This document shows positions 33,378 through 58,347 of a stretch of DNA of 64,000 nt, piece after piece; within the stretch, counting starts at the first letter, position 1, and each line of letters begins with the position of its first letter. The position numbers and the translations under genes were made by a program. Source of the DNA: Bryoerythrophyllum caledonicum (taxonomy: Eukaryota > Streptophyta > Bryopsida > Pottiales > Pottiaceae); the NCBI GenBank assembly GCA_963971425.1, contig OZ020517.1, positions 188,501 to 252,500 on the forward strand, given 5' to 3'. Under the pieces are notes generated by a model, which had not been told where the DNA came from, ran no database searches, and saw only the letters and a program-made list of their open reading frames with translations.

Positions 33378-33761
33378 CCCTTTCTCGGCTTCGGCTAAGG
33401 GATCTCCTATAGGGCTCTAGTAAGCTCTGGGACAACTTTCGTTCGGGGTGGTCCGGATAGGATCCGGGCCAGATCTGGGTGGATCCGGGCCAGATCGGTG
33501 AGGATCCGGGCCAGATCGGGGTGGATCCGGGCCAGTCTCTAGATGTTCTTCTCGCACTGTTGGCTCGGCTTCCAACAGTTCGGGATCGGAGGTCCCATGA
33601 TCAGTGTCCAAACTAGATGTACTACTGCTACTACCAACCGACCTTGCTAAAGGTCGGGATGCTCTACTCCTACGTTTGTGACGATGGGTTCGGGTGGAAC
33701 TGCGAGTACTAACCTTCTGCACTACCTCCTCCTTAACGATTGGTGGTTCCACCTCCTCCCG

Positions 33762-36061: not shown

Positions 36062-36339
36062 TGTTGTAGTACGCGTTGGCAAGTATTCACATCTTAACAC
36101 AAAGATACCCTTAAGGTAATCGTTTCCGCAGTGAGTCACCGAGAACTACAACGACTAACAACAAACCATGATCTGTACAATGTCAATTATACAATATATA
36201 CATCAAAAGAAAGGAGAGAAAGGTTTAGATCACAAGGGTGAGCGTTAATTACACCAACCGCCCCACCCAAGTACTTTACATGGCCCGGATTGTATATGGC
36301 CCGGATCCTTCATGGCCCGGATCCTTCATGGCCCGGATC
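36062..36339 (-). repeat. 5' LTR of the gypsy element, inner fragment
   Basis: Matches 24558 onward at high identity up to the 15-bp CATGGCCCGGATCST array. The 22-kb element begins there. The rest of this LTR resumes at 58348. Confidence 0.85.
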
Positions 36340-36404
36340 GGACGAAGCTATTTTGCGTGCCTTGAGCCGTGAGCCATGAGCCGTGAGCCTTCGTTCGCGA
36401 GCCT
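36340..36404 (+). repeat. left terminal inverted repeat of the 22-kb element
   Basis: Matches the complement of 58283-58347. Best-conserved block is AAGCTNTTTTGC followed by TGCCTTGAGCCGTGAGCC. Contains one extra ATGAGCC/GTGAGCC heptamer relative to the other end. Confidence 0.75.
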
Positions 36405-38000
36405 AAAGCAATAAATTTGGACCCTTTTTGGAAAAGAATATCATTAAAGTGAAAGTGAAAGGAAACAAAAAGTTGTACAAAAAGTGAAAGTAAACAAAAA
36501 AAATTTAAAAAATGAAAGTTTTCCATAAAGTAACATTTCAATTGAAAGTCTTAACTATCATCTGAGGATAAGGGCCTATTATCGTGGAATTCCTTGTAAA
36601 GTATGGGTTGTAGTCCAAATAATGAATTGTCACAAAGATGATAGGTACCCTATGACCGTGTAGGGGTTACACTACATATTGTTATAGAAGACATATTGTA
36701 TATAGATTGAACTACATAAGACATAGTCTTACGTAGTATTAAAAACTAGGAAATTGATTACACACTTCATTAGAGCAGACGAAGAAGCCTTGAATTTAAA
36801 CATGCTTTTACTGAAATATGGTCTAGGTTTCTTAGAAGATGTAAAGCTTCGTTGACCCTATGCCTCTTCAGTAAGGGAGGTCCCATATATCATCACGTCA
36901 TGTGCACTAATTCAGCATGAATAGGGAGGTGTATAGGCATGTCGGATCTTTCTTCCTCTCCTTGAATCGTTTCATTGACCAATCAATGAAAGAATCTTTG
37001 TGTTTGGAAGGAACGCTACATGCAGTCCTCTTCTTGAAAAGAATTGTTCCCTCATATTCTCCCTTGGGCTCTACAACAACCACTACATTGTCTTGCCTCT
37101 CCGCATTACTCGCATCGGCCATACATGTCACAAGTGCTTCATCCGTACAACATTCATCATCCTCATCTTCCCTATCAACCTTGTCTAGCAATTGCTCTAT
37201 CAACCTCGTCTAGCAATTGCTCTAGCAACCTCGTCTAGCAATTGCTCTAGACATCTTCGAGGATGACAATCTCATCTCCACAAAAGTTAGCCATTTCTAC
37301 AGAACTAGTACGTATTGTTCCTCCAATACATTGTTGTAAACCAATACACTAGCAATAAAGGGAAGGGGATGCAATCCTTATAGGTAGGGAGTCTTTGAAT
37401 TTGGATAGACGTTCATTTTAGGTCATACCTATGTAGTAAAAATTGTCGGATCCTTACACCACAAGTAAGGAGGGCCAATAAAACCTTACTGATTACACCA
37501 CATAAACATAAAAAAGCCTTGCAGATTAGTTAGATATTAAAAAGGAACACGAATAAGACCAACAACTATCATAGGTAGTTAAAAATAAAGCGTTGGGGGT
37601 GGCAGACACTCCAACATAGAGTGATATTTTTTATCCACATCACGTCCCCCAGGTGCACCTTCCTTGTCGGGTTTTTTTTGACCTGGACAACACCGTGAGC
37701 GGCGGTGCTATTTTCATTAAAAGCAACTGAAGAAGGAAATAACTCAACACTATCTTTCTAAACCGTGAAATCCTAAACCATGTCCACGATTCCAAGGATT
37801 GAACTATCTCGAACACTACCACTAGCTACCTGCTATAATACAATAACATGGAAATATAAGAGGGCAAAGAAAAAAAATTAACCACGTGGAAACTCAATCT
37901 AGGTGAACAAAATAAGCATGTAAAGCGGTCTGATGGGGGCGTTGATAGGCTTAGGCTATTGAGGCCTGTGAGGGAGGAAAAGTGAAGACGCACAGTTTAA
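36405..38000. other. left flank of the giant element, one unexplained ORF
   Basis: Mostly AT-rich non-coding DNA. An ORF on the minus strand at 36907-37203 encodes a 98-aa acidic/basic peptide (DKVDREDEDDECCTDEALVT ... SFIDWSMKRFKERKKD) with no motif I recognise. It overlaps three direct repeats of about 25 bp (CAATTGCTCTAKCAACCTCG, 37170-37250). It could be an exon of an unrecognised gene or chance. Confidence in coding is low. Confidence 0.3.
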
Positions 38001-38946
38001 TCCCTAAGGTACCGTGACAGTTTCGCACCAAAACACTTCAGAATTGTTTAATTCTAATGCAATGATTCAAGAAGGGAAAAAAACCTTTCATTCATAGTTT
38101 TGACCAAAGGATCTCATATACGACTTAATAAGTAACATACTCACAGAATTTCATAAACTTTGAGCACACGAATTGAAAGATTATATTAATGTTTATAGAA
38201 AAAGAACTGGTTCATTTCCTTTCCAGCGTTCACTGGATTAGCAAACTTTGACTTCACTTGGTGTCAAATATTTTCACTACACTGTCAAGGTATAAATCCA
38301 TTACCATCGTGTTGAGCATGATGTTAGTTCCTTCTTCACAAAATTTTAGAGGTAGAGGAAAGGTGTGTAGCATATTCAAAACAACTATGGAAGGAGTGGA
38401 GGTTTGAAAATTGTCAATTTGTGTTCGCATTTTTTGTGAAAAAAATATGTTTTAGATTGATAATTCAAATGGTCAGTAAGAAGATTTCCACCACATTTGT
38501 TGTGCAATACAAAATTGTCTAAAACATGAAGATCTCTAAGTTTTATGTGGAAAAAAAGAAGTTTTTTTGGTACTTTGCTCGACAATGTGTGACAATGTGT
38601 TAAAATGTTTGACTTGGGTTAATATGCTATTTTTCACGAAAGACAATGAAATATTTTTTCATTATGAAGGAAAAAATATGTCTTGCTAGTATTGAAAATC
38701 TCACATTCAATAGAGTGTCCTAGCAAAAGTTTTTCGAGGTGCCCAAAGTGCTTGCTCGGCACATTCGAAATTTGAAACCCTAAAACTTTTTCATGAAATG
38801 TCGGATTTAGGATAAAAGTGATCTCCCACTAACATCTTAGTAATGTCCTACAATAAAACTTTCAAAGTAGAGTGTTGGAAATTGACATCAAAGAAACTTG
38901 ACCAAACTTTCAAAAAGTCTATTTTTGATACTTGGTCCTTTAGGGG
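38001..38946. mobile_element. TTAA-flanked element, 946 bp, nested in the giant element
   Basis: TTAA on both sides (37997-38000, 38947-38950). Ends are TCCCTAAGGTACC and GGTCCTTTAGGGG. Same subfamily as 9108-9972 by its ends and subterminal sequence. Non-coding. Confidence 0.65.
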
Positions 38947-38950
38947 TTAA

Positions 38951-39664
38951 ATTGGACTTGAAATTGTGACATTTTAGGCTATTGTTCTAGATGAACGCTC
39001 CATATATTCTATGGCATATTTTATTTGTGGAGGAATTTAGGAATGATTGGAGATGGATAAAGCTCAACTCAATATGATGAGATTTCAATATGCGTTACAC
39101 TTAAAGTAAGAACGGGTGGTAGTAGATATAAATTGTCATTCCATTTCCTTGCTGAAATTCTGTCATATTATTTGACTTACAATGAATTGCAATTCGTCGT
39201 TTGGCATAATATGTATTTCTTGACACCAATAGAATAGGTCATTATCTCCATTAGCCCTGAATTACTATGTGTTTTTCATGAGTTGTCACGGATTTTATTC
39301 TATAAACATATGTAAGGATAGAGATTTAAAATCGAAGTTGTATCGCCATATTCATTAAATTGAGACATTTGTGTAGTGAAAGGTCTCAATTTAATGAATA
39401 TGGCCATTTGTGTAGGTTGGAGTCCCAACTCTATTTTGACCAGGTTATGTCTTGTATTTACCATATTTAATTTACCAAAGATAGGGCTTTAATTGACAAC
39501 CCTACAACTTGTGCAACTCAACTACAACGACGACGACAACAATCAAGAAGAGCAAAGAACAAGGAAAAGAAGGGGTATTGAATGAGAGTATTTGCAAAGC
39601 AAACAAAAATTCTACATTAGTGGTATAATATTTGGCAAATATCTTGGATTGAAGAAATGTTAGT
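38951..39664. other. 3' flank of the methyltransferase-like gene
   Basis: AT-rich, no gene. A ~28-bp inverted repeat (CCATATTCATTAAATTGAGA and its complement) lies at about 39,345-39,405. Possible 3' UTR and polyadenylation region of the minus-strand gene. Confidence 0.35.
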
Positions 39665-42600
39665 TTAACATGACATGTCCTCAGAGCTTTCGTACGACGT
39701 AGAAATATAATGCAGCTCTACGTCAGCCTCATCGTCTATGAATTGAAGAACACGCCGATCAAAATAACGTTCTCTACTAATTGAACACGGGGATGATGCA
39801 GCTGCCTGCCTAAGGACCTCTTCTGCATGCCATGGAGCCATTATGTAGTCTCGAGTGGGGGAACAAACGTTGGCCATCATTCTGCAAATGCCACAACCAA
39901 AGTAAGGAACATGTGAGAAGGTGCCATTAGAGGCCATATTATTCTACACGTAGGGCTACAAATTCGTACATAGTAAGGTAGAGACTTTCAGAGGATTTCC
40001 AAATTAAAGATGGAAATTGATTGGAAGACAGAAGGTGCTTACGTACTGAATCTATTGCGCTTAGCCACCGGCTGGATTTGGATCTCGTCGGCAAGGCGGG
40101 GGCCAATGGAAGAAGACACAGTAGGCATTGGAATATTAGGCGTTACTGCACGAAGAGGCTTCAACAAGGCCTCAAAGACATCATTGTCTTGCTCGAGAGC
40201 CACAATGTGGCGCCCAATGTCCTTGCATGCGTGAATAGAATTTCCTGACAAAAGTGAAGTGTAGAGAATTGTTATTGTTAAATTGTGGATGCAAATTTAA
40301 TGGATGAAAGTATACCAAAAGTATTACCTGTGGACGCAAACGCATCAAGGACAAGTGAGCCTGGCTTAGTAAGAGCAACAATGAGCATTCGCAGAATGAT
40401 GGTATCCTTCTCGCGGGGACCCCTCCATGGGACGTTCCCATTCATAGATTGTGACTCCATGGAGGTGTAGTTGAAAACAACATCAGAGTCGGAGACATCG
40501 ACGTTTTATGCCGACAAAGTCTCATCTGGAGCAATGGTGAAGTCATTCGGTTGAACTAGCTTGGGCACAAATAACTGAACCCTGAACCGTCGGGACTGTC
40601 AAAAATGAATGATAAAAGTGAAAAGACTGTATAGAAGTTGAGATGAATGTGTAGGAACTAAAAATTGATGAGAATGATGATAGTGTATTATCTTTACTTT
40701 TGGATCCACACTTGAATAAAACGGAAGCTCGTTTATACCCCACCACTCCCGCAACATGTAGAAACCGTACGCATGGGCGTAGCTCAGAATATCGGTTCGG
40801 ACCTTGGGACATTCAGGTGCAAAGGCCAAAATACTACCCTGACGGTGAAGAAATTCATGCCCAAACTCAAAAATAGACTCAACATCCTTTTTGTTGTAGT
40901 TGTTCCACGTAGGAACGACAGCAGGCTCTAAGGAGATTGAAGGTACCGGCATCCCATCAGGGAAGTCTCCAATGATGAGATTGAAGCCACCGTGCGGGCA
41001 AGCCTCCGAACGTTTTGGGATAGTGGTCGAAGCTTGGATCTGCAAGTACGTAGGAATCGAGGGTTAAACCATGCATGCAAACAAAAGAACGACTATTAAA
41101 CACTGGTAGTCTTACCTCCATGCAGAACTTGTTCATGTTGGCAAGAACCGGGTGCACTTGCGGTAGAACATCCATTATCTTTGTGAGGCTTGTGTTTTCA
41201 ATAAGCGTTGAGGACACCAAGTCCATGCCAGGCTGTTCGGTGGATTTTCCAGTGGCCCTCTTCCTCTTCAATCTTTTGAAACCTATGGATAAGGGATTAG
41301 ACAAGTCCATAAGCTGAACATGAGTAGCGGGGGAGATAGAGAGATGTTGCTGAGTCTCGGAGGGTGCCGCAAAGAAGGATGTCTCTTGAACACCATGATC
41401 TTCATCGCCATCGAAGGGCAAATCAGCATGCAGTTGTTGCCGTCTTGGTGCTGCGTCTCTTGCTGCGAGCTGTGCTTCCAAGGCTGCCGCTTTGCGTGAT
41501 GCCGTTGCCTCCGCCGCATTTGCTGCTTGTAGCTTTCGCGCCACCTCTTCTTCGGCCTCCTTCAACTTCCTCGCGACCTCTTCCTCAGTAGCTTTCTTCT
41601 CCTTTGCATCTTCCTCGGCTGCCTTTTTCCGTGCCCCTCTAGTCTTCTTCATGGGTTCTGTCACAACCGTGACCAACTCTATTCCTGCTAGAGCAGGCTG
41701 AATAGAATTCCGTAGTGGAATGTCAAATAGAGGTGGTCTATTCTTTGGACAATCTAAGTACCACCCACATTTCTTCCAATGCTCTCGATCCCAGTCCTTC
41801 ATAATCTTCTCAGTGAACATGCAGCTGTCACTAGTAGGATCCAAGTAGTTTGCGAAGAAAGGGGGGATTCTTGAAACTGCCTTCCTGGGAAGCAACACGT
41901 AATGGAAGTACCTGTATAAAGTTCGATTTACAGCCTCAGACAAAAACTTCTGCTCATCTGGAGTGTTGTTCTTAGAGACACCTTTGGTTGCCAACTCAGT
42001 GTTGAAAGCAATCTCCCAAAGGTGAATGCGCATATGCTCAACCCAGTCAACAACAGTTGGAATGGCCTCTTCATCAATCGGGTGATAGTTGACAGTCTCG
42101 TTCAGTTCGGCCAATGTTCCATGAAGAAGATCGCTTGTTTCAGAAGAGATCTGAAATCACACAGATTGCATAATTTTAATACACATGATAGTATCAAACA
42201 TGTGATAATAGGAAATGGTATCAAAATCAACACACCTGTGCCCACCAAGTAGCCCAAGTTAGCCAAAGGGGGAAGTCGTGGTCATTGAATTTGGTCTCAG
42301 GAAATCTCACAGCTTTTCGAACAGACGGCTTCATGTTCCACCGCTCAAGCCACTTAACCTTCATCGCTGCAGACATCGCGGATGTTGCCAAATAGAACAA
42401 CTTCTCTTGCGACATCTCCCGGTCATCTTCCCGCTTCTCGTAATGGATTTTAACCTGATTGAGAAAATCAGGCGTGTGCTTCGGGTCAGCCGGGGGCAGC
42501 TGCTTCTTCACCTCAGTGACATAGTCCTTCTTCACCTTCTTCACCTTTTCCAACACTTCGTGATGCAAATCCTTCCTGTTCCACTGAGCTATCTTCTCTG

Positions 42601-45600
42601 GATACTTCTCAATAAACATTCTGTTGGCATGCGCTGCTGCTTCACCAATCTCTTGCTGAAATGAGACACAAAAATCATTAGAAGACCATGTGTACGAGAC
42701 TAGAGAGCCTCTAAAAGATCCTCCAAAAGAAGGTACCGCCAACAGTACCACCCTCAAAGAGAGTTAGAGGGAGGAACCACTTGTCACTCTAATAGAGTCA
42801 CCGCTAGCGGCTCCCCTTTTCAGAATAACCAAAGGTACCTCGCAACCTCTAAAAAGGAATGTGCAGCCAGAGGCATTCACTCCACAGGATGCCTTGAGCA
42901 AGCCACTTGCACCTCATAAACGGTGTGATACTAGCAGCACTCCCCCTAGAGGCTGCCCCAAGGAAGCCATCAACACCTCAAGAAGAGGGTGCCGCTAGCG
43001 GCACTCTCTCTATGGGGTGCCTTGAGCAAGCCACTTGCACCTTCAACAGGGTGAGCCACTGGAATCACTCCCACAAGAGACTGCCTCAAGGAAGTCATCA
43101 ACATCCATTTAAGTGAGTGCCGCCAGCGGCACATACTTACTGAATACCTTAAAAAAGCCACTTGCACCTTCAAAAGGGTGAGCTGCTGGTAGAACTCCCT
43201 CTACAAGCTGTCCCAAATAAACCAACAACATCTAAAAAATAGGGTGCTGCCAGCGGCACTCTTTCTATGGGATGCCATGTGCAAGCCACTTGCCCTCCAA
43301 AAGAATGAGCTGCTAGCACTACTCGCAGTAGAGGCTGCCTCCAGAAAGCTATAAGCATTCTGTAAAGAGAGTGCCGTTAGCGGCACTCCCTTCAGGGGGT
43401 GTAGATGACATACAACTAACTCCACAAGGCCATTTCACGAAGAATGATCATACATTTGACTAATAATGATTGTCAAATAAATGAAATGTAGTCCTAAGAG
43501 ATGAATAGTACCTGATATAGTACTCCAACGAGTCCTTTGATAGTAAGCGTGTACCATGTTGGAGTTCTATCCCGTTTTGCAATCGCATCATCAATTTTAG
43601 CCTTTGTCACTAGGTTCTCAAAATAAGAGAGGGGTTGCCCAGCAATTCGTTGAATTCTATAAAGCTTGTGCACTAGATTTGATTTCACGTGGCACCTTTG
43701 GTTCCGCCTGCCAAAGGAGTGGATGGAGTTTTGAGACAAGGTTGACACATTTTACAATTTAATAAATTTGATGAAATCAGAACTTACCAATTGACCTGGT
43801 GGAGTGCAGTCACAAGCGGTCCTGTCGAACCTGTTGGAACATCCAAGATAATCGACTCCACTGCGTAATGCCAATCTATATCATCACCGTGGTCTCTGTT
43901 GATAATCTCCAGACAAGCTTGAGACGATGGTTCCCATCCCAAACATAGAACATCTTACCCGAGTACTTCATCAAGTCTTCATCTTCGAGCAACTGTGCCT
44001 CAAACTCTTCATTCTTCTTCTTCCACAATGGACTCCATCCAAGAATAATCTCCTTGCTTACATCAAGTGTCTTCCCATGATCATTTTGGAGTGCAACATA
44101 GAAAACGCCATGACCCTCCATGTACCCGGTGCTCACAAAGTGAGCCCCTAAAGAGCTGACGTCGTTTGAGAGAGGCGGCCTCACCGCCAATACTTCCTTC
44201 ATTCTACACAGAGGGATATCAATCTTGGACTTCTTTCGTGGCTTCATCGGTAACTTCTCTAGGACAAGACTTGTGTTCACTGATTCCTGCAATACAAGTG
44301 TATCCATCTCTCTCCCCAAATCCTCAGCTGACATTTCCTCCCGAAGATCATCATCGACATTCTCATCTTCAAAATTGTTCTCATTGTCTTCATCGTCATT
44401 GGAATGGACCCCTGCATCTAGAGATTGGTTAAACAAAAAGAATAGAATACAGAACCGCTTTTGATAATAAAGTTGCATTTGCTACCTGAATATTCACGAA
44501 TTGGAGGTTGCTCGTTGCCCACTTGGTCGAATTCGCGTTCCACGCCCTCAGGCTCCATATCTGCAACAAAGCATTTGAGTTAACATCAAAATTAAATGCC
44601 GACAATCTAACAAACAGTCACGAGTTTACATCACTGGTTTCCTGGTTTCACGAGTGACCATCACTGGTTTAACGAATAATCATCAGTGGTTGCATGAATA
44701 AACCAACTTGTTTCGCGAATTAACATTTTTGGTTTCACGAGTGAACCTCACTGGTTCCAATTAACATCATTGGTTTCACGAGAAACATCACTCGTTAATA
44801 AAATTCTCGCACAATAAGTCATCACTGTAGAAGTGCCGAAAGAACAAAAAGTCGCCACAGTTAAAGTACCGAATTCCACTTTGTTTGGTAGGACCCCTCT
44901 GAAGGAGGTGCCGCCAACGGCACTTGCTTCACAGGTGTCCTCGAACCATGCACCTGCCCGACCATCATACCGTTGCTCTTTTCGCTGCCGCCACTCGTAG
45001 CCACAATATTCGACATTCATCCTGGTTTCACAAGTGACGAAGCCACGAATCAGCTCGTATTCACGAACTAGACCGCCCACACTTGTGCCCGCCATTCCGA
45101 GTAGAGACTCAGATTGTTCTCTCTCCTCGTACAGGACTTGCTTTTGTGTGTATACAAACGTGCACTGTTCATTAAAAAAGGATAGGAACAGAAATAGTTG
45201 GTTCTTGGTCCTCTTAACAGCGACAGACCTAACATGACTGTTGCATGCATAAATGTACCACTTCATTGAACCAGACGTACATGTATGCAAACGAATGCAA
45301 ATACATGTATGCATACGAACTGACATGATTGTTGCATGCATACATGTACGTCTGGTTCATTTCGATTGCGTGCAAATTCGACTTCAATGAAGAGGTCCAC
45401 AAAATCTCTAACAAACTCTTTCTGTGAAAATCGTGTACATTTAGTAACAGATTCATGATTCATGCTTCAGTATTCGTGATTCATGATTCGTGATTCATGA
45501 TTTGTGATTCATGATTCATGATTCATGATTCATGATTCATGATTCATGATTCATGCTTCAGTATTCACATTCATGATTTAGTATTCGCAACAGTCATGTC

Positions 45601-48600
45601 AGTTTGTATACACAAACTGAACCAGTCGTACATATATTCGCAATCGAATTTAACCAGACGTACATGTATGCATACATGTACCTCTTCATTGAATGTGACG
45701 TACACAATCGAAACAAGTACCTATGATTCTGAACGTCATGAATTGAACAAGCTGAGCATTGAGTTCGGGCTTCAAAGTTGCAGAGGTTGCAACACCATTT
45801 AAAATGATAGGATTCATTCAGTAGCAACGTGGCCAAGAAAAATCAGCCAAGACTAATACGCGATTTGTTGGCCAAGAGTGACGTCCTCTGCGAGTCGCAA
45901 AAGGAGGCCTCGATCAGTGGATACACTTTACTGATTTGCTGATTTGGTAGGAGATGCCGCCATCGGCAGTTGCTTCACAGGTGTCCTCGAACCATTCACT
46001 TGCCCGGCCAACATACCTAGCTCGCAAATCCACTTCAACTTCTAGTAGTGAACAAATTCCAATTCTGCACCTACTCTGCTACGACTATATTTTCGATATA
46101 TCTACTATTCTACCATCGCTGTAGTACCTAGATTTTTGTCCAACTTCCTATCCACTTCTTATCCAACTTCTTGTGCACTTCCTCTCCAACTTCCTGTCCA
46201 CTTCCTGTCCACTTCCTGTCCACTTCCTGTCCACTTCCTGTCCACTTCATGTCCACTTCCTGTCCACTTCCTGTCCACTTCCTGTCCAACTTCCTGTCCA
46301 CTTCTTATCCAACTTCTTGTACACAAGCTAGATGTTGCAAAATCAATCATCTGATCTTACAACATGATCTTACTACTACTTCACGATAATCTACATTGTG
46401 TACATAGCTCAACTCATTGCAGTATCATGCAGTATAAGAAGTATCATGAATTATCATGAGAATCGAACATAAAGCATGAGCCATGAAGGCTCAATGCTGA
46501 GATCTGATATCCTATCGATGGTTGGAAATTAATATGACCAGCCAACAAATAGTTACAAAAGTTCAAGATGCACAACTTGAACTTCTTGTAGTAAGTTGTA
46601 ACTTGAACTTCAAGCTCACGAGTGCACTTCAACTTCTAGTAGTGAACTTGTAAGCGATTGACTCTTAAACTTTTGTAACCCACGTAACCTAATACATGAT
46701 GTATAGTCCACTCCAAACGTAAAAATGTAAAGTTTGGTTTTCTCACTCAGTTCATGAAATTCGTGTGCACCATGACTATTTGAAGATCAGGTTTCAAACT
46801 CTTGCTAGTATATCACGTCCTCCTAAAATTCAGGCATTCGTTCACGTTGACTCTAAAGGATTTCTTTCCTAAACTTGTAACTGCTGAACTTGTCCAGTTC
46901 TAGGTGTAAAATTTACGTTCTCGTTGATTGTACACCAATTCACATTATCCTTAAAAGATAGCTAGAACATTTTGTTGTACTAAAGTCATGCTAGAACATC
47001 TCGTTAATATATAGTTCTCTTAAGAGTGCTTTTCTAAACGTTCATGACTTCCCATCTCATCGTCCATTCCCATCCTAAGCATGTGAATGCAACTCTACCT
47101 ATCGATGATGTAATACACAACAAAACGTGTTAAAGAAACCATCGCGTGACATTGCACCATACTTGTAGAGGTCTCGATCTCTTGACACAGCACAATCCGT
47201 CGTCACTGTTGAAATGACGATTACAAGCTTGTTTGGTAGGACCCTTGTGGGAAACTGTCCCCACATACTTCCGGAACTTAATACAATCCCGGAAGAAAAT
47301 AAGGAAAAAAAATTAGAAAAATTAGTTAGTTAGTTGACTAAAAGAGCATAAGTAGTTCATGAAATGGAATAAGATTTTAGTGCTGCGCCGGAATCCCTAA
47401 TGAAGATAGTTACGGCACCCTTCCCGGAAGTTGCAAAACCGGAGGGCGGTTACAGCCGGAACCAAAAATGCCATCATGACGCATAACTGTTTTCCGTACG
47501 AGCGCGTCAGATACAAAACGCGACTGGCAGCCCTGTGCACCAATCTTTTAGGGTTTCCAGCAGGCTCATTCTCTTTTCCCTTCTCGCATTCTCTTAGGGT
47601 TTTGAATCCGGTCTTGGTGAAGGACGGAAGAGCCAATTTAGGTTAGCAAGAGGGACTTGGTGAGGACAGTGCGTGCAGGTTCTCTTGACAATATTGCGAG
47701 GCGCAAGTTCACGGAGAGGTGGGCACGGATGGCGGGCAAGAAGGGCAAGGCTCCGGCTACCGAAACACTGGTGCTGCAGAAGGTAACTCCGGAGATTCCG
47801 AAGCCGGTCAAGACCTGTCGGGTTTTAGAGAGCTACCTCGAAATCATGGGTTGTGAAGGTCTTCTAGCGACACCGTGGGCCTACCAGAGCGACACAATGA
47901 TGACGGAGCTCCTGGGAGAGCCACCAAGCCAATACGCACAGAAGATTAGGGCGCATCCGGAGGTCTGGACCACGACGCTCTGGAGAGATACCTACGAGTT
48001 CCGGGCAGGAACAATCAAGGTGGCGGAACGGGACGACGCCATCCTGAAGGGCGAATTCCGCGCGAAGGCTAACCCTAAGGACGGGTATGTCCTCAGCGAT
48101 CTCACCGATCCGGATGCCAGGTTAGTAATGGCATTCGTCAATCCTATTTTCCACCCCGAGAAACCGAAACGGATAGTGGCCAAGCTAGCAACCCTAATCT
48201 TAGGCTCGATGAGAGGGAAGCTGTCTGTCGACTGGGCGGCCATCATCGACGAGCAGATTGACCGGATGGTGAAGAACCTGCCGAAAGCCCGGAAAACCCC
48301 ATCCCCACTCTCCACCTACCTGGCTCACATGTATGCCAAGCAGAAGATGTTGAGTCCGGACGAGCAGGCCGAGTACGACAGCTTGCTCACCATCCAGTCA
48401 TACGGAGGGATGGAAACAGATGAGGAACTGGATGAATCGACGGACTCTGATACGGAGAAGTCGTCATCCCCCCTTATACTTCGAAGACCGAACCGGAAGC
48501 GTAGTCGTTCGGTGCAGAGGACTCCGGAGACCCCGGGAGAATGCCGGCCGTTGTCAACAATCCCGGCGCAGAGCCCACCCATAGCACCACCAACCACAGC

Positions 48601-51600
48601 ACAGCCTGCCGCACCGGAACCGGCCCCAGAAGACGAACGATTCGCGACCGGATCAGAGCCGGGACCGACATTTGTCCGAAGCATCATTGGCGACATTCCC
48701 GTGGATGTCCACGAGCTGTGCAGACATATTGTCTGGAGGACCAGGATCTAGGAGGGGGAGATCCGGGAGAGGCATGCCATGATAATGGCCATCTTAGAGG
48801 CAGTCGGACTGGAGGACACCACTCACCTCATCGCCCAGCTCAGAGAGATGAAGGAGAAGCACGATTCCGTCACAAGACTCGAACAGGAAAACGCCACCAT
48901 AACCAAGGTTAACACCCGGCTCTGGAGTCAGGTCCGGCAGGCGGAAGCCGCACGAGATGCAGCACAGCATGCCCGAGTGGTGGCAGAAACGAAGGTCCGG
49001 GCGGCGTCACAGTCACTGATCGATATTCGCACGGCACTGGATTTTCCGGTGGATACGGTTAACCGGGCATTACTCTACACGGCGAGCTTGGAGAAGAACG
49101 AGAAGCTCAGCAGGGGGCAGGTTATCCGATTCTTGGTAGATCACAGCCGGAAAATGGAGGGCACTTGGTCCAAGATGCAGGAGCTAGCGAGGGAGCTCGT
49201 CGCGGCCACCTCAACAGTACCAGGAGCTCCACCTCCAGTTCCGGCACCTCCTGCTTCAGATGCTGCGGGACCATCCGGAACCCAGGCAGATCCGTCTGGA
49301 AACACTGCCGGCCCGTCCGGATCCCCATCCGGTCCGGCAGCTGTTTCTCCTTCTCAACCTCCGGCCGGCCTTTCACCCAGACCTGCATCTGGAACAACGA
49401 AGTCACTCACCGGACAGTTCAATGACCTCGTGGGAACGCCGGACTTCAGCTCTCCTATGAGTTGGAATGGGGTGGCCTTCCCAAGCACGGAGAGTATGCA
49501 GAAGTGGGAATAGGTGCCAGGGAGTCAGGTAGTACCACCCTTGCCCTTCCGAATTCCCTCCGAGTCTCCCTCTCTGGGGCCACCAGTGACGGATCCTTTA
49601 CCCGGAAGCTCGGCAGCGACACCCATGGTAGTCAGCCCCAGCGGTAGCTTCCGGGACCTTCCGGACATTGAAGACCGGGCTAATGCACCATCCGGCCAGG
49701 CGGTTGCAACAGGGGACCCAGATGCACCATCCGGACGAGGTATGCCGACGCCGACCACCTCACCGGAACCACCAGCAGCCATTCCGGCGCAAACCGAGGC
49801 CGGCGCCTCTCCATCAGAAGTTACCCCTTCACGCCGTAGCAGTCGGAGGCGGAACCAAGTAACCCCGTAGAATAGGATCTTTAGTTCTAAAGGTCTGATA
49901 AGCGATTAACGATGGGGCTCAAGCTTGCACCCGGCTATCATGCGATAAGACTAAAGACAGTTTTCCTTTTAGTTTTTGAATTAGAACCGTAGAAACCGGA
50001 TCTCAGATCCGAAACTTTCGGATCTAGGTTTGAATTCCGGATTTCTAGGGATAATATCCCTTTCACTTTTAGGATAGGATTTCCCGGATTTTTAGCTTCT
50101 TAGTTCCGATTTTAGATCAGCAGTAGCGGGCTCTTAACGCAAGAGTTGTGGCCGGCTAAGGGCCTTTTTTTCTTTTCCTCAGGAATGATATTTGCTGTTA
50201 GTATATTTTCTTGCATTGAAATTATGGTGGCATGTATCATTTTGTGAATGAAGGATAGGGCCCATTGTGGTTGATGATTAGTGGAATAGTTGTGGAAGCT
50301 GAAGTGGTTCACGGATAAGCATCTAGTCTAACCGGTTGGGACTTGCTGTGGGAGAGCGCCCGGAACAGCTAAAGGAGAGGTTAGGTAGAGTCTGACGATC
50401 CTTGGTGACCGGAAGAAGCCTGGAGGGGGAGGGAGGGTACTTTAGGCGGTGGCCTGGTAGCTCCTAGGGCACGGAGATTCCGTGTGAACCCGGATTCTGG
50501 TGGCGACCGGAATTTCCCCTTACGATAGATGGAAAAGCCTGTGGTGTATGTCTAGAAGGAAGTCCAAATGCAGATCTACCCTTCACACCTCACCGAACCA
50601 CTAATTATTTCCCAGAATGTCGTTGTAGTCCGGGTGAGCCTCTGAGTGACCGTATCCGGAAGGCCTTCCGGATAATGTGAGAGAGTGCATCCGGAAACAA
50701 CAAACCAACGACCAATTAGCAGCCTAGGGAGAGTGGGTGCCTAGCCACTTAAAGTCACAAGGCAGTGGGGAATCCGGCCACTTACACAAAATAGGATCAG
50801 TGGTACCCGGCCACTCGTTTAAAAACTCCGGAAGACAAACTCCAACTGACCTTCCGGAAGTTGACAGGACCCGGAAAATAGTAGGAAACTACATTGGACG
50901 TCCGGAAGGATCCGGATAAAAAGGTCAGGCGTAAAATAGGAATACTAACTGGCGTGTGGTAGAGGGATAGCAGGTAGCTTATTTAGCATTCCAAGAAGAA
51001 ACAATAGATCTCTGTGGGAACGAATTTAGAGCGACCATGCCGGGCACATTTAGCTTCAACTAATTGCTATCCGGAGGACTACTTACTCTACAAACTGCAA
51101 CAACCCTTGTGAAGTAGGTGCCGCCAACGGCACTTACTTCAGAGGTGTCGTCCTGGCATTCACAGGGCCAATACATACTTCAACTAAACAGAACGTAACT
51201 GGTTGACATTGACCGTAATCTACATGGTGTCTTTGTGTTATGAACTCCTTGGTGGCAGATGTAAAATTATTGAAATAATTTTGCTCTTTGTGCCATGATT
51301 ATTAGGAACACATATCTGGACTCTACTAGATGAGGTAAATCTTTGCTTTGGTGCTCAGTGAGCACTAGAATAGGATAGCAGCGATTTAATCAACATATTG
51401 ATAGTTATACTGGCCTCGCACAGAGCACAAACTACATCATGATGAGGTTTCGACCTTGAAATGACCTCCAAATGAGTTGTTACGATTCTGATCCTTCAAT
51501 CCAAAGGTGAAGTCTGGCTAAATATTAGTATAGTTTTGGTTTAACTGTTGACAAAAACTGTGCATATATCAACGACTCCCTACCAATAATTATGAAGTGA

Positions 51601-53104
51601 ACCAAAATCTACACAACCCAAGTTAGGGTTTCTCTAAGGAATTTGTCACCACCTGGATTGCTTTCTCAATCGAGGATGAGTTCCCATCTATTTCCACCCT
51701 AAGCATGTTAACGCAATTCTACACAACACGACGTGACAGAGCTCGAAGTGACTATGAAACTAGAACAAACTAAAATTTTTCACTTTTTCACAACTCCAAG
51801 TTTCGGCCTCTTATCACATTAGTTCTCAAAAACACAGTTCCCGATAAACCACACGACCTTAACTTCAAAGACGTGTGCAGATCATAATGCGCTAGTTCAG
51901 ACCTCGTTCAGACCTTTCTAAGATTAAGTTTAGACCTTCGCAGTTATGATGTATGTGGAAACCTTCTTAATCAAAATGAGTAAGTCTTGCAAAACAATGA
52001 ACTTACCTGCCAAGATTTCCCTCGCACGCGATGAGGTTCGCTTCCACTGTAGCTGCGTCTGAATCTCTCCTTCGTCTGCGACAACAACAAGATTTCAGCT
52101 CCGACCCTTAAACCTCCACATCTCTTTCTTGCAAATCAACATCAACAAATTTCAAGTTCAAAACCCTATTCCAAGTTCAAAACCCTATTCCAAGATTGAA
52201 GTTGAAAACCTAATTTCAGAACCCTTTTCATAATATTACCTTCTTTCAGTTCTAAACTGTGACTACATGCAACCTTCCTACTCCACTGTTAAAAACGACC
52301 AGAAACACAACTGCGAGCATCCTCCTACTCCGCTCTCAACCACGACCTCAAACACCAACATGTGCTTTGACCAAACCCTAAATCAACCGCCTAAGTCTTT
52401 AAACTAGAGAATGAAGAATCACACAAGCTAACAATGAAGGAAAGTATTGATCCATCACTTCAACTGTAAACAACACGACTCACACTGTAATAGAGAGTCA
52501 CCAACATTACTCGCAAACTTCTCCAAGCTTGAAAACGACACAAAACTGTAAACTTAAGTTACATCTTCGAAGCTGCAAATGAAAACTACTCAATCTATTG
52601 ATTTCTTTGACTTAACTTCTAAACAATATGAGCAAAAAATTTTAGGGTTATGTCATCAAGTAAAAGGAACAAAAACTTCTTGTTTTAACTTCTAGTTCTC
52701 ACGGTATAATTTAGAGAGTAAATATCTTGTCGCATTTATTGACTTTACATGTACTAACGTCTAGAAGGTTATTAATCATATACATTACCTGATTGTAAAG
52801 GAGGTTGCCTTGAGTATGGGTCTCCAGATGCCGTGTCTACTCCTAGTGCTGTGCTGCGACTCTCGCTTCTACTTGGGGATCCATGTTCCAGTTGTCCTGG
52901 GCCCTGGACAATCGCGGGAATACTTTCGAGGTCTACATTATCCTCTTTACTCATTTTCCCAGTCTGATCAACAAGATCGGAGAACTCTAACACTTTTGTT
53001 GTCTCACCAATCTCTGCAATTCTAGCACTCTGCTTCTTTTCTCTCATCACTTTGTTCCTCAACATGGTCTTCCTATTACTGAAACAAAACTTCTTCTTTG
53101 GCAT
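39665..53104 (-). CDS. ParB-like / DNA methyltransferase-like fusion gene of the giant element (11 exons, probably inactivated)
   Basis: I read 11 GT-AG exons: 53104-52789, 52075-52007, 44560-44486, 44417-43788, 43707-43512, 42655-42236, 42150-41116, 41039-40698, 40595-40328, 40244-40043, 39881-39665; about 1256 codons. The N-terminus is basic (MPKKKFCFSNRKTMLRNK). Residues ~215-360 look like a ParB/sulfiredoxin-type domain (IDIPLCRMKEVLAVRP, then YVWDGNHRLK at ~310-320). An Ala/Glu/Lys coiled coil follows. From ~915 comes a permuted N6-adenine/N4-cytosine methyltransferase pattern: motif-IV-like NLIIGDFPDG, then KPGSLVLDAFASTG + NSIHACKDIGRHIVALEQD (motif I and next strand). Motif IV is atypical (usual form D/N-PPY). 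One base seems missing just after DGNHRLK near 43,930 and an in-frame TAA lies at 40506-40508, so this copy is probably dead. Exon phases agree at every junction except that missing base. Confidence 0.6.
42730..43400. repeat. intronic tandem repeat with GTGCCGCYARCGGCAC palindromes
   Basis: Units of roughly 100-130 bp, each with a near-perfect 16-bp palindrome (42989, 43117, 43244, 43371; degenerate versions near 42732 and 42797) and GCCACTTGCACCTYMAAAAGG-like sequence. It lies inside the intron between exons 5 and 6 of the minus-strand gene. The palindrome recurs elsewhere in the 22-kb element (44908, 45954, 51118, 55946). Confidence 0.75.
44600..47240. repeat. satellite-rich part of the 7.4-kb intron 2
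   Basis: Several simple arrays. TGGTTTCACGAGTGAACATC-type repeats cover 44625-44795. CATACATGTACGTCTG-type inverted pieces lie at 45275-45355 and 45655-45680. A (GATTCAT)n array spans 45470-45555. A 12-bp CTTCCTGTCCAC array spans about 46140-46325. Two copies of the TTTGGTAGGA..GCCGCCAACGGCA unit occur (44885, 45943). ORFs across these arrays are not genes. Confidence 0.7.
47246..51102 (+). mobile_element. solo LTR of a related gypsy family, with 5-bp target duplication
   Basis: Starts TGTGGGAAACTG, ends AAACTGCAACA, flanked by ACCCT on both sides (47241-47245, 51103-51107). It interrupts a copy of the TTTGGTAGGACCCTTGTGAA / GCCGCCAACGGC repeat, so the empty site is readable. Inside is the two-ORF module in the same order and relative position as in the 4.7-kb LTRs. 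There is no gag, pol, primer site or second LTR. A solo LTR of 3.86 kb is the simplest reading. The duplication could also be read as 9 bp (ACCCTTGTG). It lies in intron 2 of the methyltransferase-like gene. Confidence 0.65.
47657..49513 (+). CDS. diverged copy of the LTR two-ORF module
   Basis: The upstream ORF (~364 aa) has the core LTDPDARLVMAFVNPIFHPE and VDWAAIIDEQIDRMVKN. This aligns with TDPRARRVFAFLVPILYPEK and VNWAIIVKDVVIRL of the gypsy LTR ORF, followed by the same acidic, Ser-rich and basic succession. The downstream ORF (~245 aa) opens with a coiled coil and has ALDFPVDTV...SRGQVIRFLVDHSRKME, aligning with ALRFPADVV...SSKRVIAFVMEQTVKVE. Its tail is Pro/Ser/Gly-rich and coding-like composition continues to about 49,870. 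It lacks the PALCTP repeats. Function unknown. Confidence 0.6.
51108..52006. other. remainder of intron 2, no gene seen
   Basis: AT-rich intronic DNA. Begins with the right half of the palindrome unit interrupted by the solo LTR (palindrome at 51118-51133). Nothing else supported. Confidence 0.4.
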
Positions 53105-53727
53105 TCTCTCACTGTTACCAATGACTCATTAGTTTACATCCTAGCCAAACCACTTAACCAATTGAGGCAAACGTATCTACCAGTATACCACATCACTACC
53201 AAAAGATTATTGACTAAGCTGCAATCAAGATTTCCCATACTCATCTTATATTGCCACCACAGTCACCTCCTTAACTGATTAAATGATGAACCCTCGGCGA
53301 GATTTCTATTACTATGCATCCATCACCTTTAACTGAATTAGATAACCACAGTTCCTATTCTAACATATAGCCGTCTTTACAACACTTTATTGGGCTTACG
53401 TCCAAGATGTATCGTATTTACTGTAATCTTCTAAACCGTCCAGCCCGCCAAAAAGGATCCCAATTCTTAATTTTAATCAATATCTGACGTTGTTCCCTAC
53501 TGATCCAAAATAAGAACATAGAGCACGTGGCTCAATTTAATACACGATGGCGCCACTGAGAACCAATTATCAATTCTCGCTCTATTGAATAGGTGCATTT
53601 AACCCCTCCGTTTATTACCACGTAATTACCTTGACCTTCAGGCTCTCGAGTGAAACCTATATAAGCCTCTACATTCTCTTGTTTCTTCCTCTTCAAACTC
53701 TGTTGTGTTGATGGTTTGGTTATCGTC
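53105..53727. promoter_or_regulatory. shared divergent promoter of the two giant-element genes
   Basis: About 620 bp separate the start codons of the methyltransferase-like gene (minus, 53104) and the transposase (plus, 53728). A TATATAA box at 53658-53664 fits the transposase gene, predicting a start near 53,690 and a very short leader. An out-of-frame ATG at 53711 precedes the in-frame ATG at 53728. No clear TATA box was found for the minus direction. Confidence 0.5.
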
Positions 53728-56700
53728 ATGGCTACTATTGAGGATCATCTTGGCCAGAGTGTACTCATCCGAGGAGATGTGCAGGAAGTACCTATCTCGT
53801 TCCATATATCTGAGGATGGATACGCAGTTGTAAAGTCTAGTCGACTAGCTTCACGATTTCAGCTAGCAGAGAGAGGCTTGCACATTGATAAGGATGTTCA
53901 TTATAAGGAGAGTGGAGAGATTTCCCATACTATAGCTCAGATCTCTAGTATGTGTGAGGATTGCGAAGTGTGGTTGTTGAAATCAGGAGAGTACCGAGTG
54001 TATGGGACAAGGATTAGTGAATCTGGTACTCGATCTGTAATGTTGACGCCTAGACAACCGTCAATTGTTGCAGAGGTGACACCGCTCTTGTCTAAGGTGA
54101 AAATTGAACCCACTGAAGATACCATCCTTATTCTCAGTGACAACTCTGACACAAAGTGCTTCCCTAGTACCCTAATTAGCACATTTTCAAAGTCGGAGCC
54201 TAGTCCACACATTCTGATTGCGACTCCTTCTGTTTCTGCAGGCCCTTCTCGAATGAAACCACCCTTTGCATCGTCTAGACTAGCTCCTGCTAGTATAGTG
54301 GAATGCCTCCGAAATCTCAATACCCGTCAAAGAGCTAGGTCGGTATTGAGTAAATTAGATTATACTGCCATGACAATAGAACAAGTGAACGTTCTTCCTG
54401 TGACTTTTGACGGTGACCGGATCTTTGAGCTTCCCTCACTAGGAAACTACACGCGATCGTCTAAGGCTGGTCTTTTGGAGGGGATGGACAAAGCTTATGA
54501 CGGTAATGCCTGGACCCGGACAGTCAGGTCCCACATTAAGTCCGAGTACAATCTCACGTTTAGAATGTCCTCTTGTTTGGGGAATCTCCAGTGCACCAAC
54601 CCCACCTACGACTACCTGAGTCGAATCCATCGCACTTCTCCCAGGAACGAAACTGAATGGGAGGGCACCGCGGACTCTCCCTTTAATCCTGGTTGTGACC
54701 CCCCTCTTAACTCCACTCTCGTCTGTTCGGTCTGTCGGACCCCTCCTACTTGCTTAAGAACGTGTCCCGCTAAAATCAATTATGTCCTCGGCCAGAGTCA
54801 TCAGAGTCGAGCGTGCGTCCATCTGGGATTCCACAGTCATTTGATTAGGACGGGAATTTGCAGGGAATCAGCACACATACTCAAGACTCGCATCGCAGAG
54901 CAGGTTGAGAGGACACCTACTGCAACAAACTCGTCCATTGTCCTCGAGGCGAGCAAGGACTATCTTGGAGAGTTACTTCTCTACCCTGATGGTGTTACAA
55001 AGAAGACGTTGAGTTTTGTTGAACTTGTCCCACTCCTAGACAAATTCAAGCAGATGTCCTCTCCCAGTATCCGGAACGAGGTGACTACTTTTAGGCACCT
55101 CCGCCGTTACGGTAAACAGGATAGCATCACCAAGCTCAGAGGTTCCAGCAACTGGGCCTTTGTACAAGAAAACCGCTTTCCGGGGCAAGGTAAAGAAGAT
55201 GACAAGGTATTCATATTCAAGATGTCAGAATTGGGACCAGCGAGTGGCGTCGACCTGGTGAATCGAATGCAACCTGGAGGTGATTTGGAGGAGTTGTGGA
55301 TGATGTTTGACCACGTCAAACGCCACAAGACATGGACTACGATGGCATGTCATGTGTACGACTCCACGTACTGTCGAGTGATGACAATCTCTGTATGCAA
55401 CATGATGTCCGAAGACGCCAATGCCCAAGTGCTATTCTGGAAGAATCTCAACGCAGTTGCTGCTGGTCACGACGTTGAAAATCCCAATTTCAAGGGATTT
55501 ATGGCTGACAGCGCCCAATCAAACTGGATTGCAGTGCCCATAGTTTATGGAAATGGCGACAAGACGATCCCTATGCCCAACCGGGAACGCACGTGCCTTT
55601 TCCATTGGGTCCAATCTTTGGAAAAACACACATAGGCAAATATCAGGGCAGACCTACGAGATCAACACAAACGGCTCTGCAAACAATATAAGGATTCTAA
55701 GTCGATGGAAGAGGCTGAAACGAAGTACCTTGCAATCCGCTCATGGTGGTTATCATCAGGAGCAGCAACAGAGGAGGGCCTCCCACGTCTTGATTTGTGG
55801 CTGGCGTTCTGGCATTTTCGATACAGACAATGGGGGGGCTTTATGGAACTCGTAAGTCTTCTGCACTTGTTATTCACCTTCATATATTTTTTCAGCCTTA
55901 CTCTTTTCCTATGATCATGAATACCCAATGTACCCTTTTATGAAGGTGCTGCTAACGGCACCACTTTCAAGGTGGTCATTGTAAGAGTGTATGGTGACAA
56001 ACCTGTACCCCACGTCACATAATTATTATTTGGAGCTAACATCTTGTCGTCTTCGCAGAATATGTCCCTATCCGAGTTGGCGGAGATGCCTTCCTGCAAT
56101 CTTGCCGAAACCATCCACAACAAGTGGTTGCAACAATCAGGCAAAAGAGGCAATGATTTGTACGTGGCAACCGTCGATGACATGGTACGTGCCTTCATGC
56201 AAGTTGTTGGGTACTATCAATTTCTAAAGGGTGAGAAGGCCGGGACCGGACCAACGAAGGAAGAACTTCGACTACGTACCGCCCAACGTACAGCAGAGCG
56301 GTCTGGAAATGCAAAAGTTCTCCACGCGGCCCTCGCCAACATGCCTGGCGCTGCCACCTTCTGTACTCGTGAACCTCATCTTGAAGGTGAGGAAGTCTTC
56401 CTTTCTCTAAAACGAAAGGCTGACCTTCCTCCAGGTTCAGAATTTGACTCCCACCGACCTGATAAGATTAGTGTATCACGGCCTCGGGTCAGAATACAAC
56501 AAAGTAATCGCAAAATAGTGGACTTGACCAAGGAAGACTGCCCCCAGGAGTTGGATGCAGTGCCAGAGGTTGAAGACAACGTCCCGTCTAAGACTCCACC
56601 TTCTTCGCCTCGAATTCAGCATGTCAAAGCAGTCCAGGAGATCGTCTACAATGAAAGGCAGTGGCATATTGCTAGACTCCACAGCCGATCTGCAAAAAAA

Positions 56701-57510
56701 TGTTTTGCTCAACAAGCGCAAACGAATAAGAAATGCGTTGCCATGATCATCCAAGATGGTAAGCCCACCGCGGCCCCTACGTACATTGATATCATGGATA
56801 ACTTTAGGAAGGCTAGGGAAGAGATAATGCAATTCTTCTTTTGCAACGACAACATTGAGCGATGTGTGAAGGGCACAAGACGGAGGTGGGTAATGACCAG
56901 GCCACAAGTACCAGACGTGTGGCCTATCAAGATGGGAACGAACCTCACAAAGAAGGAGATTCTAGCCTTGGAGAATGCAGGTTTTTGCCTAGCTAAACAT
57001 GTGGAACTTTCCCCTCGAAAGCTTTTTGTTGACGAAGTCGCCTCCCTGGATCTCAAGGCCTATCCTACTCCTTCCAACCTTGACGAGCACCCTAAGAAGA
57101 GGTATGATAAAAATATCCGCAGGAATGCCAATGCACCTACTACTAAGCAGCTCAACAGTTGCGCTTCTGCATTGTCTGTTGTTGGTAAGATTTGTAGGAT
57201 TCGTATGGTTCCCCCTAACGCATTGGGTTGCATTGTCACCTTCGAGTCCAAATCCATTTCACAAGTATCAAGGTATTTGGTTACCATTGGACAGTTTCCA
57301 AGCTGCGATTGTTCAGCATTTACAGAGATGTCGAAGAAGTCACTTGGAAAACGTGGGGCGTGGACATACTGTAAGCACTTATACTACATCCTCAACATTG
57401 TTTGTGGACTAGATCCGGAGGTAGATGTCTTCATCCACAGTCCTAGTTTTAGCTGGTACGAGATTATGCGGATTCTCCAAGTTCTGCTTCTAAAACATTA
57501 TGGTCCTTAG
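53728..57510 (+). CDS. MULE-type DDE transposase with SWIM zinc finger (one internal stop)
   Basis: Two exons, 53728-55851 and 56059-57510 (GT-AG, phase 0), about 1191 aa. Cys/His-rich region at residues ~283-370 (CLGNLQC, CSVCRTPPTCLRTC, HLGFHSH) is reminiscent of GCM/WRKY-like zinc DNA-binding folds in such transposases. Catalytic core: CHVYDSTYCRVMTISVC (D545), KGFMADSAQSNW (D594) then ERTCLFHW, and CNLAETIHNKWLQQSGKRG (E725). SWIM finger near the C-terminus: C1124-D-C1126 ... C1146-K-H1148. The ATG at 53728 is chosen because the open frame begins upstream without an ATG. A TAG at 55633-55635 interrupts an otherwise continuous conserved frame (KHT / ANIRADLRDQHKRLC), so this copy is probably inactive unless read through. 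The class is clear; subfamily not assigned. Confidence 0.8.
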
Positions 57511-58282
57511 TAACCTCAAGTGTATCAGAACTTTATATTGTACTATTGCTCATTTATGAGAATGCTGTGAGACTACAAGGGCCACAGCCAGTGAGTTTTG
57601 AATAACATACCTCACTACTCTAAACCCTGCATGCACCATTTGATGATAGAAAATACTTCCCCGCTACATTATACCCAATGCCCTCATCTATATCACTTTC
57701 TCTTGTCCATCCACGCCCTAAATCCTCAACCCTAAATACCACCTATACCTACTTCCTATTCTAAATTCTCTTTCTCCCTATTTATCCCTATTCCAAACTC
57801 TCCATCTCTCTACTAATCTCAAAGTCTGTCTCTCCAGCTGTTCCTAAACCTGCTTATCCGTGTCCATAAAGTCTCTTCATCGTAATTTCCCTCATTCTCA
57901 ATCCTCTCCATCCTGAACTTTCCGATTGTTTTATTGTCCTTATCCAGAACTCTCAATAATTCTCCACGACCATAGATTATTCCTCTCCATCCTAAACCCT
58001 AAACTAGACAAGGGCATCTCCTTAATTGTCTCTTTCCAGACCTCTCCCTCACCGTAATCATCCACATCCGGACCTCTCCTTCTCCCTAACGATCCATAAA
58101 CCTAAAACCTTTAGTTCTTTACATGCAAATGTACGGAGTGTTCCATCGTAAATTTTTACAAAAATAACTATAAGCACTGAAACTTTTGCTATTTAATCCA
58201 CGGTAATAGGTCCAAGTTTTATATCAAAATTAGAAATATCTTCATCAAAAATTATTATCCTTTACTTTTTTCTCTAACTTTT
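57511..58282. other. right flank of the giant element, no gene seen
   Basis: C/T-rich with many CCCTAAA and CTCTCC motifs, then AT-rich toward the end. Holds the probable 3' UTR of the transposase gene. No ORF worth listing. Confidence 0.4.
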
Positions 58283-58347
58283 TGGCTCTGGGCTCATGTC
58301 CAAAGGCTCACGGCTCACGGCTCAAGGCATGCAAAAAAGCTTTCCCC
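58283..58347 (-). repeat. right terminal inverted repeat of the 22-kb element
   Basis: Reverse complement reads GGGGAAAGCTTTTTTGCA then TGCCTTGAGCCGTGAGCC, matching 36340-36404. Confidence 0.75.

Follow-up and report, generated by a model that had tools for sequence, protein, structure and literature searches.

Accessory proteins that join a ParB-like part to an N6A/N4C methyltransferase are known from eukaryotic transposons: the Ectocarpus transposon Sola1-1_Ec32 encodes one (PMC12477816), and the same paper cites Iyer 2011 and Petroll 2025 for transposons of green and red algae. One suggestion is that such proteins bind and modify the element that encodes them; it names no target in the accessible text of its source, and other published work is likewise quoted here from the accessible parts of each paper. 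ParB folds are frequently fused to N6_N4 methyltransferases in phages (PMC12704722), a ParB-methylase shows nicking activity (PMC5512222), and charophyte and dinoflagellate retrotransposons carry cytosine methyltransferases (PMC5890265). The locus described here lies in a stretch of 64,000 nucleotides from Bryoerythrophyllum caledonicum (contig OZ020517.1), called the window below. It is a DNA transposon with two genes, a transposase gene and an accessory (cargo) gene, whose predicted product has a ParB/Srx-like motif ahead of a methyltransferase-like domain, and its introns contain repeated palindromes.

On the strength of the selection acting on the cargo gene, of its methyltransferase-like domain and of the palindromes, we propose, with a probability of about one half, that the accessory protein binds the palindromes in the introns of its own element and opposes silencing in the manner of VANC, the second protein of the Arabidopsis VANDAL MULEs.

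A transposon-borne gene kept under selection

The cargo gene of the window runs on the minus strand between 53104 and 39665 and is split into eleven exons with AG/GT borders (Table 1). The 437 Mb genome was searched, and the window was compared with eight close copies (C3a, C7a, C9a, C10a, C6a, C8a, C2a and C4a) for the limits of the element. The gene could be mapped in all eight, with exons 1-10 equal in length save for one base absent from exon 6 of C4a, and the eleven-exon structure predicted from the window by the sequence-only reading was thereby confirmed. Its location inside a transposon was also borne out, since terminal inverted repeats of 36 bp and target duplications were found; the 10-bp duplication is perfect in all three other copies displayed with both ends (C3a, GCCGTGGAGG; C7a, AGCTAGCGAT; C9a, AGCCTCTCAC). 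The two genes are arranged head-to-head, the transposase on the plus strand and the cargo gene on the minus strand. The cargo gene is a real gene borne by a transposon.

The copy in the window is damaged. Exon 4 has a one-base frameshift directly after GNHRLK (630 vs 631 nt), and exon 9 is interrupted by an in-frame TAA, so that the single open gene read there earlier is disproved. Five of the eight close copies (C3a, C7a, C9a, C10a and C6a) are open through exon 10 and encode 1185 residues; in C8a and in C2a the frame meets a single early stop, and C4a is broken. The aligned exon 8 donor lacks GT in three of the eight (C10a, C6a and C2a). At the end of exon 10 one choice of donor leads to an immediate stop, and a donor 4 nt further on leaves exon 11 open. 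Among ten diverged copies, exons 4, 5, 8, 9 and 10 were each detected in 9 or 10, with about 40-67% identity by exon. Genomic matches to exon 7 number at least 107, since 104 of 2107 candidates were scored. The full-length cargo protein had no match at E <= 0.001 among 5.8 billion proteins, probably because its exons are predicted apart in that collection; an exon 8 profile search of the protein collection yielded 18 homologues.

The overall ratio of nonsynonymous to synonymous substitution rates (dN/dS) of the cargo gene was 0.19 in seven of the nine copies (C4a and the window, with broken frames, were left out), against 0.20 for exon 1 of the transposase in six copies (C4a, C9a and the window left out). 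The accessory protein is kept between amplification rounds as strictly as the transposase, which indicates that the element depends on this protein. Passive capture of a host gene was rejected because the two ratios are equal. By part, dN/dS was 0.17 for exon 8, 0.08 for exons 9-10 and 0.50 for the N-terminal part, with exon 4 among the most constrained exons (Table 1); the two youngest copy pairs gave 0.52 and 0.65.

Palindromes in the introns of the element

The introns contain a palindrome, GTGCCGC(Y)(R)GCGGCAC, with the arms GTGCCG-N4-CGGCAC, for example GTGCCGCTAGCGGCAC; the variant of the diverged copy C1a is GCCGATATCGGC. Nine palindromes with at most three mismatches were found in the window against 0.33 expected, a number reached by none of 100 shuffles. 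All nine lie inside the element, and the 42 kb of the window outside it contain no match to the palindrome core. When the nine copies were searched for arms with at most one mismatch, 70 sites were obtained. Intron 5 accounts for 44 of them, the stretch between exons 1 and 4 for 23 and the transposase intron for 3; neither the mapped exons nor the element ends contain any (exons 2 and 3 were unmapped).

In intron 5 of the eight copies in which this intron is short (C8a, with 3.6 kb, was left out of the sums), the observed/expected ratio of CpG was 0.18-0.27 outside the palindromes, and 91 CpGs were counted inside them as against 68 outside. The pattern fits methylation-driven decay outside the palindromes and retention inside.

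The arms recur, with changed centres, in the introns of several diverged subfamilies. C1a has 11 copies of GCCGA-N2-TCGGC against 0.008 expected; nine of them fall between exons 1 and 4, and the transposase intron and intron 5 contain one each. Several of the 11 share the core and have unrelated flanks. Three sites were found in L032, one of them adjoining the transposase exon border at the place of the C1a intron, and two in L034; L035 has four exact and two near sites in an array of 64-bp tandem repeats that lies between exons 1 and 4. Tandem periods of the palindrome repeats are 64, 95 and 127-128 bp.

Genome-wide, 679 exact palindromes were counted, and the backward control gave 0. The largest listed cluster, at C1:29.72 Mb (L073), was chosen by its palindromes alone and is intron 5 of a cargo gene with 40-56% identity (1 of 1 examined). 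This gene is absent from the exon 7 list, contains ten sites with exact arms between its exons 5 and 6, and gave no blastn match to the element of the window at E <= 1e-5. Its intron is less CpG-depleted outside the palindromes (0.72). With up to two arm mismatches, 24 palindrome-like sites lie at 790-3158 of L073, within one intron 5 of 2.4 kb.

Readings of the accessory protein and the palindromes

A second protein under selection, together with repeated noncoding motifs that differ by subfamily, is the pattern of VANC and VANDAL, and from it we infer self-recognition and anti-silencing. Subfamily-specific short motifs repeated in noncoding DNA, as in VANDAL elements, are present here, in the C864 clade only through a motif picked out post hoc. 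The likeness to VANC suggested by the sequence-only reading is supported, and the intron palindromes strengthen it independently. In the proposed mechanism the accessory protein would bind the palindromes in the way that parS is bound by ParB and the VANC motif by VANC; the bound protein would load onto copies of its own element and might keep them unsilenced, so that transposase could be made. A palindrome is a form that would suit a protein reading DNA as a dimer, for instance a ParB-like one. A narrower version of the proposal, which we put forward tentatively, is parS-like: a ParB-type protein with a repurposed methyltransferase domain would load at the subfamily-specific intron palindromes, spread and shield the copy, with protein and palindrome co-evolving.

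The ParB-like part was recognized in exon 4 by YVWDGNHRLK, in which VWDGNHRL is invariant among five aligned members and was read by eye as box II (GxxR-type). Of the earlier ParB/Srx assignment the signature stood, and the fold match looked for in profile comparisons of exon 4 did not appear. The ParB assignment comes solely from the VWDGNHRL motif, and the fold is unproven.

Several results weigh against anti-silencing by a ParB-like reader, those on the protein first. Pfam, PHROGs and PDB sequence profiles gave no significant ParB match, and hhalign did not connect the cargo protein with a profile built from eleven phage proteins of the ParB and ParB-methylase kinds. The best family score of a ParB hidden Markov model was -1.3, against 4.7 for the best shuffle (1385 of 2000 shuffles scored), and an ordered-block test against shuffles and five other sequences performed no better than shuffles, although its first two blocks landed at the expected places. 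Separately from these results, searches of IMG/VR for relatives returned 12 pattern matches for the ParB-like profile, none confirmed, and one generic phage enzyme for the methyltransferase profile.

On the side of the palindromes, the C864 clade is without GTGCCG arms; core matches with at most one mismatch numbered 2 in C864, 1 in L029 and 0 in both L030 and L031 (shuffle mean for C864, 0.35). This clade has GCCATGGC instead (5, 10, 2 and 5 copies), a post hoc observation; the motif ranks at the top of the 256 palindromic octamers in each of the four. L036 has no palindromes in the 4.8 kb examined. The expected C1a motif was not found in L033, a close relative of C1a, which is neutral because the similarity to C1a ends short of the relevant introns. 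In L073, exons 8 and 9 were not detected in the stretch examined. The CpG and conservation figures are biased, the sites having been found by their resemblance to the palindrome, and the number of sites is partly due to repeat amplification, since they lie in tandem or dispersed repeats. Of the 50 listed genome-wide sites, only four have a listed exon 7 match no more than 5 kb away (judged by eye; the exon 7 list is a lower bound).

As a separate observation, GCCATGGC clusters upstream of exon 4 in L029, L030 and L031 (within the first 510 bp) and in intron 2 of C864.

The accessory protein might instead serve transposition itself, in end assembly, integration or copy-number control, as mudrB does in maize MuDR, with the palindromes as internal docking sites. 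The head-to-head arrangement with the transposase and the equal constraint on both genes agree with such a role, and the second open reading frame (ORF) of MuDR is apparently needed for integration in the accessible text of PMC6446971; the sites, however, are intronic and lie away from the terminal repeats, the expected place of docking for end synapsis, and we consider this role unlikely. Nor is it any likelier that the palindromes are read by the transposase or a host factor, or act as RNA or DNA hairpins in splicing or termination, independently of the accessory protein. They do lie in transcribed introns and could form hairpins, but the recurrence of the arms with subfamily-specific centres and the C1a cores shared without flanks fit a binding site, whatever its reader.

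A permuted beta-class methyltransferase, which had been read in exons 8-10, was upheld at the level of profiles: PF01555 (N6_N4_Mtase) reached 29.1 bits in the close copy C3a and 27.7 in the diverged C1a (cut-off 26.7), and the motif-IV-like stretch (exon 8) stands ahead of the motif-I-like stretch (exon 9), in the permuted order. Exon 9 of the window alone scored 19.8, under the cut-off. PF01555 was found at E <= 1 in six of the seven members and PHROG DNA methyltransferases were matched by all seven (best E 1.1e-8); the closest solved relatives in PDB, both weak, were DpnA (E 0.0025) and CcrM (E 0.022). Profile-profile comparison with 11 phage enzymes, run without a shuffled control, gave a probability of 86.7 and an E of 4.4e-6 over 62 C-terminal columns, and motif IV aligned, with DFPDG opposite DPPYG, only in a forced full-length alignment to the phage enzymes. 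A chance methyltransferase-like motif was rejected, PF01555 being above its cut-off in a close and a diverged copy.

The comparison of motif IV covered 36 sequences, of which 18 were the exon 8 homologues from the protein collection, ten came from diverged copies, seven from close copies and one from the window. The catalytic tetrad (D/N/S)PP(Y/F/W) occurred in none of the 36, nor did DPPY or SPPY. After P0097, whose first residue is missing, had been dropped, 35 sequences were tabulated (alignment A5 leaves out P0104). The first place was D in 34 and N in 1; the third P in 27, K in 7 and A in 1; the fourth D in 28, E in 4 and N, S or Q in 1 each, never aromatic; and the fifth G in 27, N in 7 and D in 1, so that most sequences read D-x-P-D-G or near it. 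Known enzymes have Y, F or W at the fourth place of the tetrad. Because DPPY is absent from the 36 sequences, ordinary N6-methyladenine (6mA) or N4-methylcytosine (4mC) catalysis by the domain is doubtful, and the element-encoded active DNA modification envisaged earlier is weakened. The replacement of the tetrad is conserved and is not random decay, which makes a changed function likelier than a dead relic; rather than an ordinary 6mA/4mC methylase, the domain is more likely to be a scaffold binding S-adenosylmethionine (SAM) or DNA, or an enzyme whose chemistry has changed.

Self-marking, the role proposed for the Ectocarpus protein, in which the domain would be an active 6mA or 4mC enzyme that chemically modifies the element encoding it, is accordingly rather improbable in our judgement. 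Several features would suit such an enzyme: motif I retains its strand, the subsequent loop its G-N, the acidic residue behind strand 2 (ALE) persists, exons 8-10 are under constraint and the first residue of motif IV is nearly always D; D or E at the fourth place in 32 of 35 and the lack of FxGxG from motif I in all seven aligned members stand against it.

That the palindromes are an unrelated amplifying repeat residing in these introns by chance is highly improbable: their tandem periods, their 679 exact genome copies and the 46 of 50 listed sites not placeable near a listed exon 7 match (104 of 2107 candidates scored) would fit such a repeat, but the 42 kb window flank has none, the same introns are occupied in diverged subfamilies, and the sole cluster chosen blind fell in a cargo gene.

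Features, setting and relation to known systems

Table 1. Features of the transposon in the window (positions are those of the window)
Feature	Position	Strand	Remarks
DNA transposon, whole	36340..58347		22,008 bp including the 3.9-kb nested element; homology to other copies ends at 36340 and ~58348
Left target duplication	36330..36339		GGCCCGGATC; right copy 58348-58357, GGCCCAAATC; 8/10 equal
Left terminal inverted repeat	36340..36375	+	GGACGAAGCTATTTTGCGTGCCTTGAGCCGTGAGCC; four other copies match the window
Right terminal inverted repeat	58312..58347	-	plus strand ends AGCTTTCCCC; window and six other copies
Cargo exon 11	39665..39881	-	coding or 3' untranslated
Cargo exon 10	40047..40244	-	GNSIHACKDIGRHIVALEQD; end 40047, or 40043 by alternative donor
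Cargo exon 9	40328..40595	-	motif-X-like PWRGPREKD, motif-I-like LVLDAFASTG; in-frame TAA in window
Cargo exon 8	40698..41039	-	motif-IV-like NLIIGDFPDG
Cargo exon 7	41116..42150	-	first part conserved (dN/dS 0.14), second K/E/A-rich (0.29)
Cargo exon 6	42236..42655	-	dN/dS 0.07
Palindrome array, cargo intron 5	42989..43386		42989, 43117, 43244, 43371; spacing 127-128; weak one at 42861
Cargo exon 5	43512..43707	-	dN/dS 0.09
Cargo exon 4	43788..44417	-	ParB/Srx-like motif VWDGNHRL; 1-base frameshift in window; dN/dS 0.07
Cargo exon 3	44486..44560	-	
Palindrome, cargo intron 2	44908..44923		GTGCCGCCAACGGCAC
Palindrome, cargo intron 2	45954..45969		3 mismatches
Nested LTR-type element	47246..51102	+	3.9 kb, in cargo intron 2; 5-bp duplication ACCCT
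Palindrome, cargo intron 2	51118..51133		GTGCCGCCAACGGCAC
Cargo exon 2	52007..52075	-	69 nt in window, 72 nt in eight close copies
Cargo exon 1	52789..53104	-	ATG at 53104
Transposase exon 1	53728..55853	+	right border approximate; in-frame TAG at 55633-55635 in window copy
Palindrome, transposase intron	55946..55961		GTGCTGCTAACGGCAC
Transposase exon 2	56061..57512	+	borders approximate; SWIM-like CxC..CxH by eye, no Pfam match

The target duplication of MULEs is about 8-11 bp and that of Sola1 elements 4 bp. The terminal inverted repeats and the 10-bp duplication of the present element are of MULE type, and an assignment to Sola1 was rejected on the length of the duplication. Pfam at E <= 10 gave no MULE transposase or SWIM match for either transposase exon, and the element is best called MULE-like only, its ends fitting a MULE and its transposase lacking the profile match. 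The DDE reading of the transposase was made by eye. Its relatives in the protein collection number 86 at E <= 0.001, none informatively named, and the TAG of the window copy sits where ten other copies have Q, H or K.

A Gypsy-type long terminal repeat (LTR) retrotransposon with LTR ends 94.6% alike occupies 24562-36343; further ORFs lie inside it at 26112-28361, on the strand of its gag and pol. The stretch 24773-28436 recurs at 58391-62048 with 97.6% identity, so that the transposon apparently inserted in an LTR common to two Gypsy-type copies. The nested LTR-type element of cargo intron 2, which plays no part in the mechanism, has only gag-like ORFs (by eye; 47642-49870) and directly adjoins a palindrome. 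Elsewhere the window contains a 138-bp tandem satellite of about six copies (23743-24553), plus-strand fragments of what we take to be an Exportin-like host gene (12703-17379) and two ORF groups, at 412-1575 and 21543-22744, that presumably resemble pogo/Tigger-type DDE transposases. An Rfam scan of the window at gathering scores gave no match.

As described in the accessible text of PMC12477816, Sola1-1_Ec32 resembles the present element in size (21.5 kb vs 22.0 kb here), in the length of the accessory protein (1104 residues vs 1185 or somewhat more here), in the combination of a ParB-like part with a methyltransferase domain, and in the position of the gene on the strand opposite the transposase. 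It is assigned to Sola1, from which our element is set apart on the length of its target duplication, 10 bp. The methyltransferase tetrad is altered here, and palindrome arrays are unmentioned for the Ectocarpus element in that text.

In phage ParB-methyltransferase fusions (for example Wolbachia phage WOVitA4, L039), and in the Bacillus cereus ParB-methylase as far as the accessible text of PMC5512222 goes, a ParB/Srx-type motif likewise lies upstream of a permuted beta-class methyltransferase. Unlike the cargo protein, L039 and the majority of the compared phage members carry DPPY together with a motif I of the GSG form, and the phage and cargo ParB parts are too far apart for detection. The elements of PMC5890265 also carry DNA methyltransferases, but in the text available these are C5 enzymes in retrotransposons.

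The kind of accessory protein found here is thus already known from algal transposons; what is new, as far as the literature was searched, is the type of element, a tetrad whose loss is conserved, and a definite candidate target. The search found no report of a plant MULE with such a protein, and none of the palindromes or of the altered tetrad, which is weak evidence of absence as few subscription journals were covered. The candidate target can now be written down (GTGCCG-N4-CGGCAC and its subfamily variants), which makes the idea of self-recognition testable. The conserved altered tetrad, if the proposal is true, would mean that a DNA methyltransferase fold has been reused beyond ordinary methylation.

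The closest functional parallel may be VANC. In the accessible text of PMC5735166 and PMC10398659, the VANDAL MULEs also encode a second protein and also have short motifs in noncoding tandem repeats that differ among related families. VANC has DUF1985/DUF287, with no ParB or methyltransferase domain named in that text, and its motifs are short and non-palindromic (YAGTATTAY, AGTTGTCC), unlike the palindromes described here. DUF1985/DUF287 families did not turn up in our general Pfam scans, which included no dedicated comparison. If the proposal is true, transposons would have evolved anti-silencing by a dedicated DNA reader on two or more occasions, in one case with VANC and in another with a module of bacterial type.

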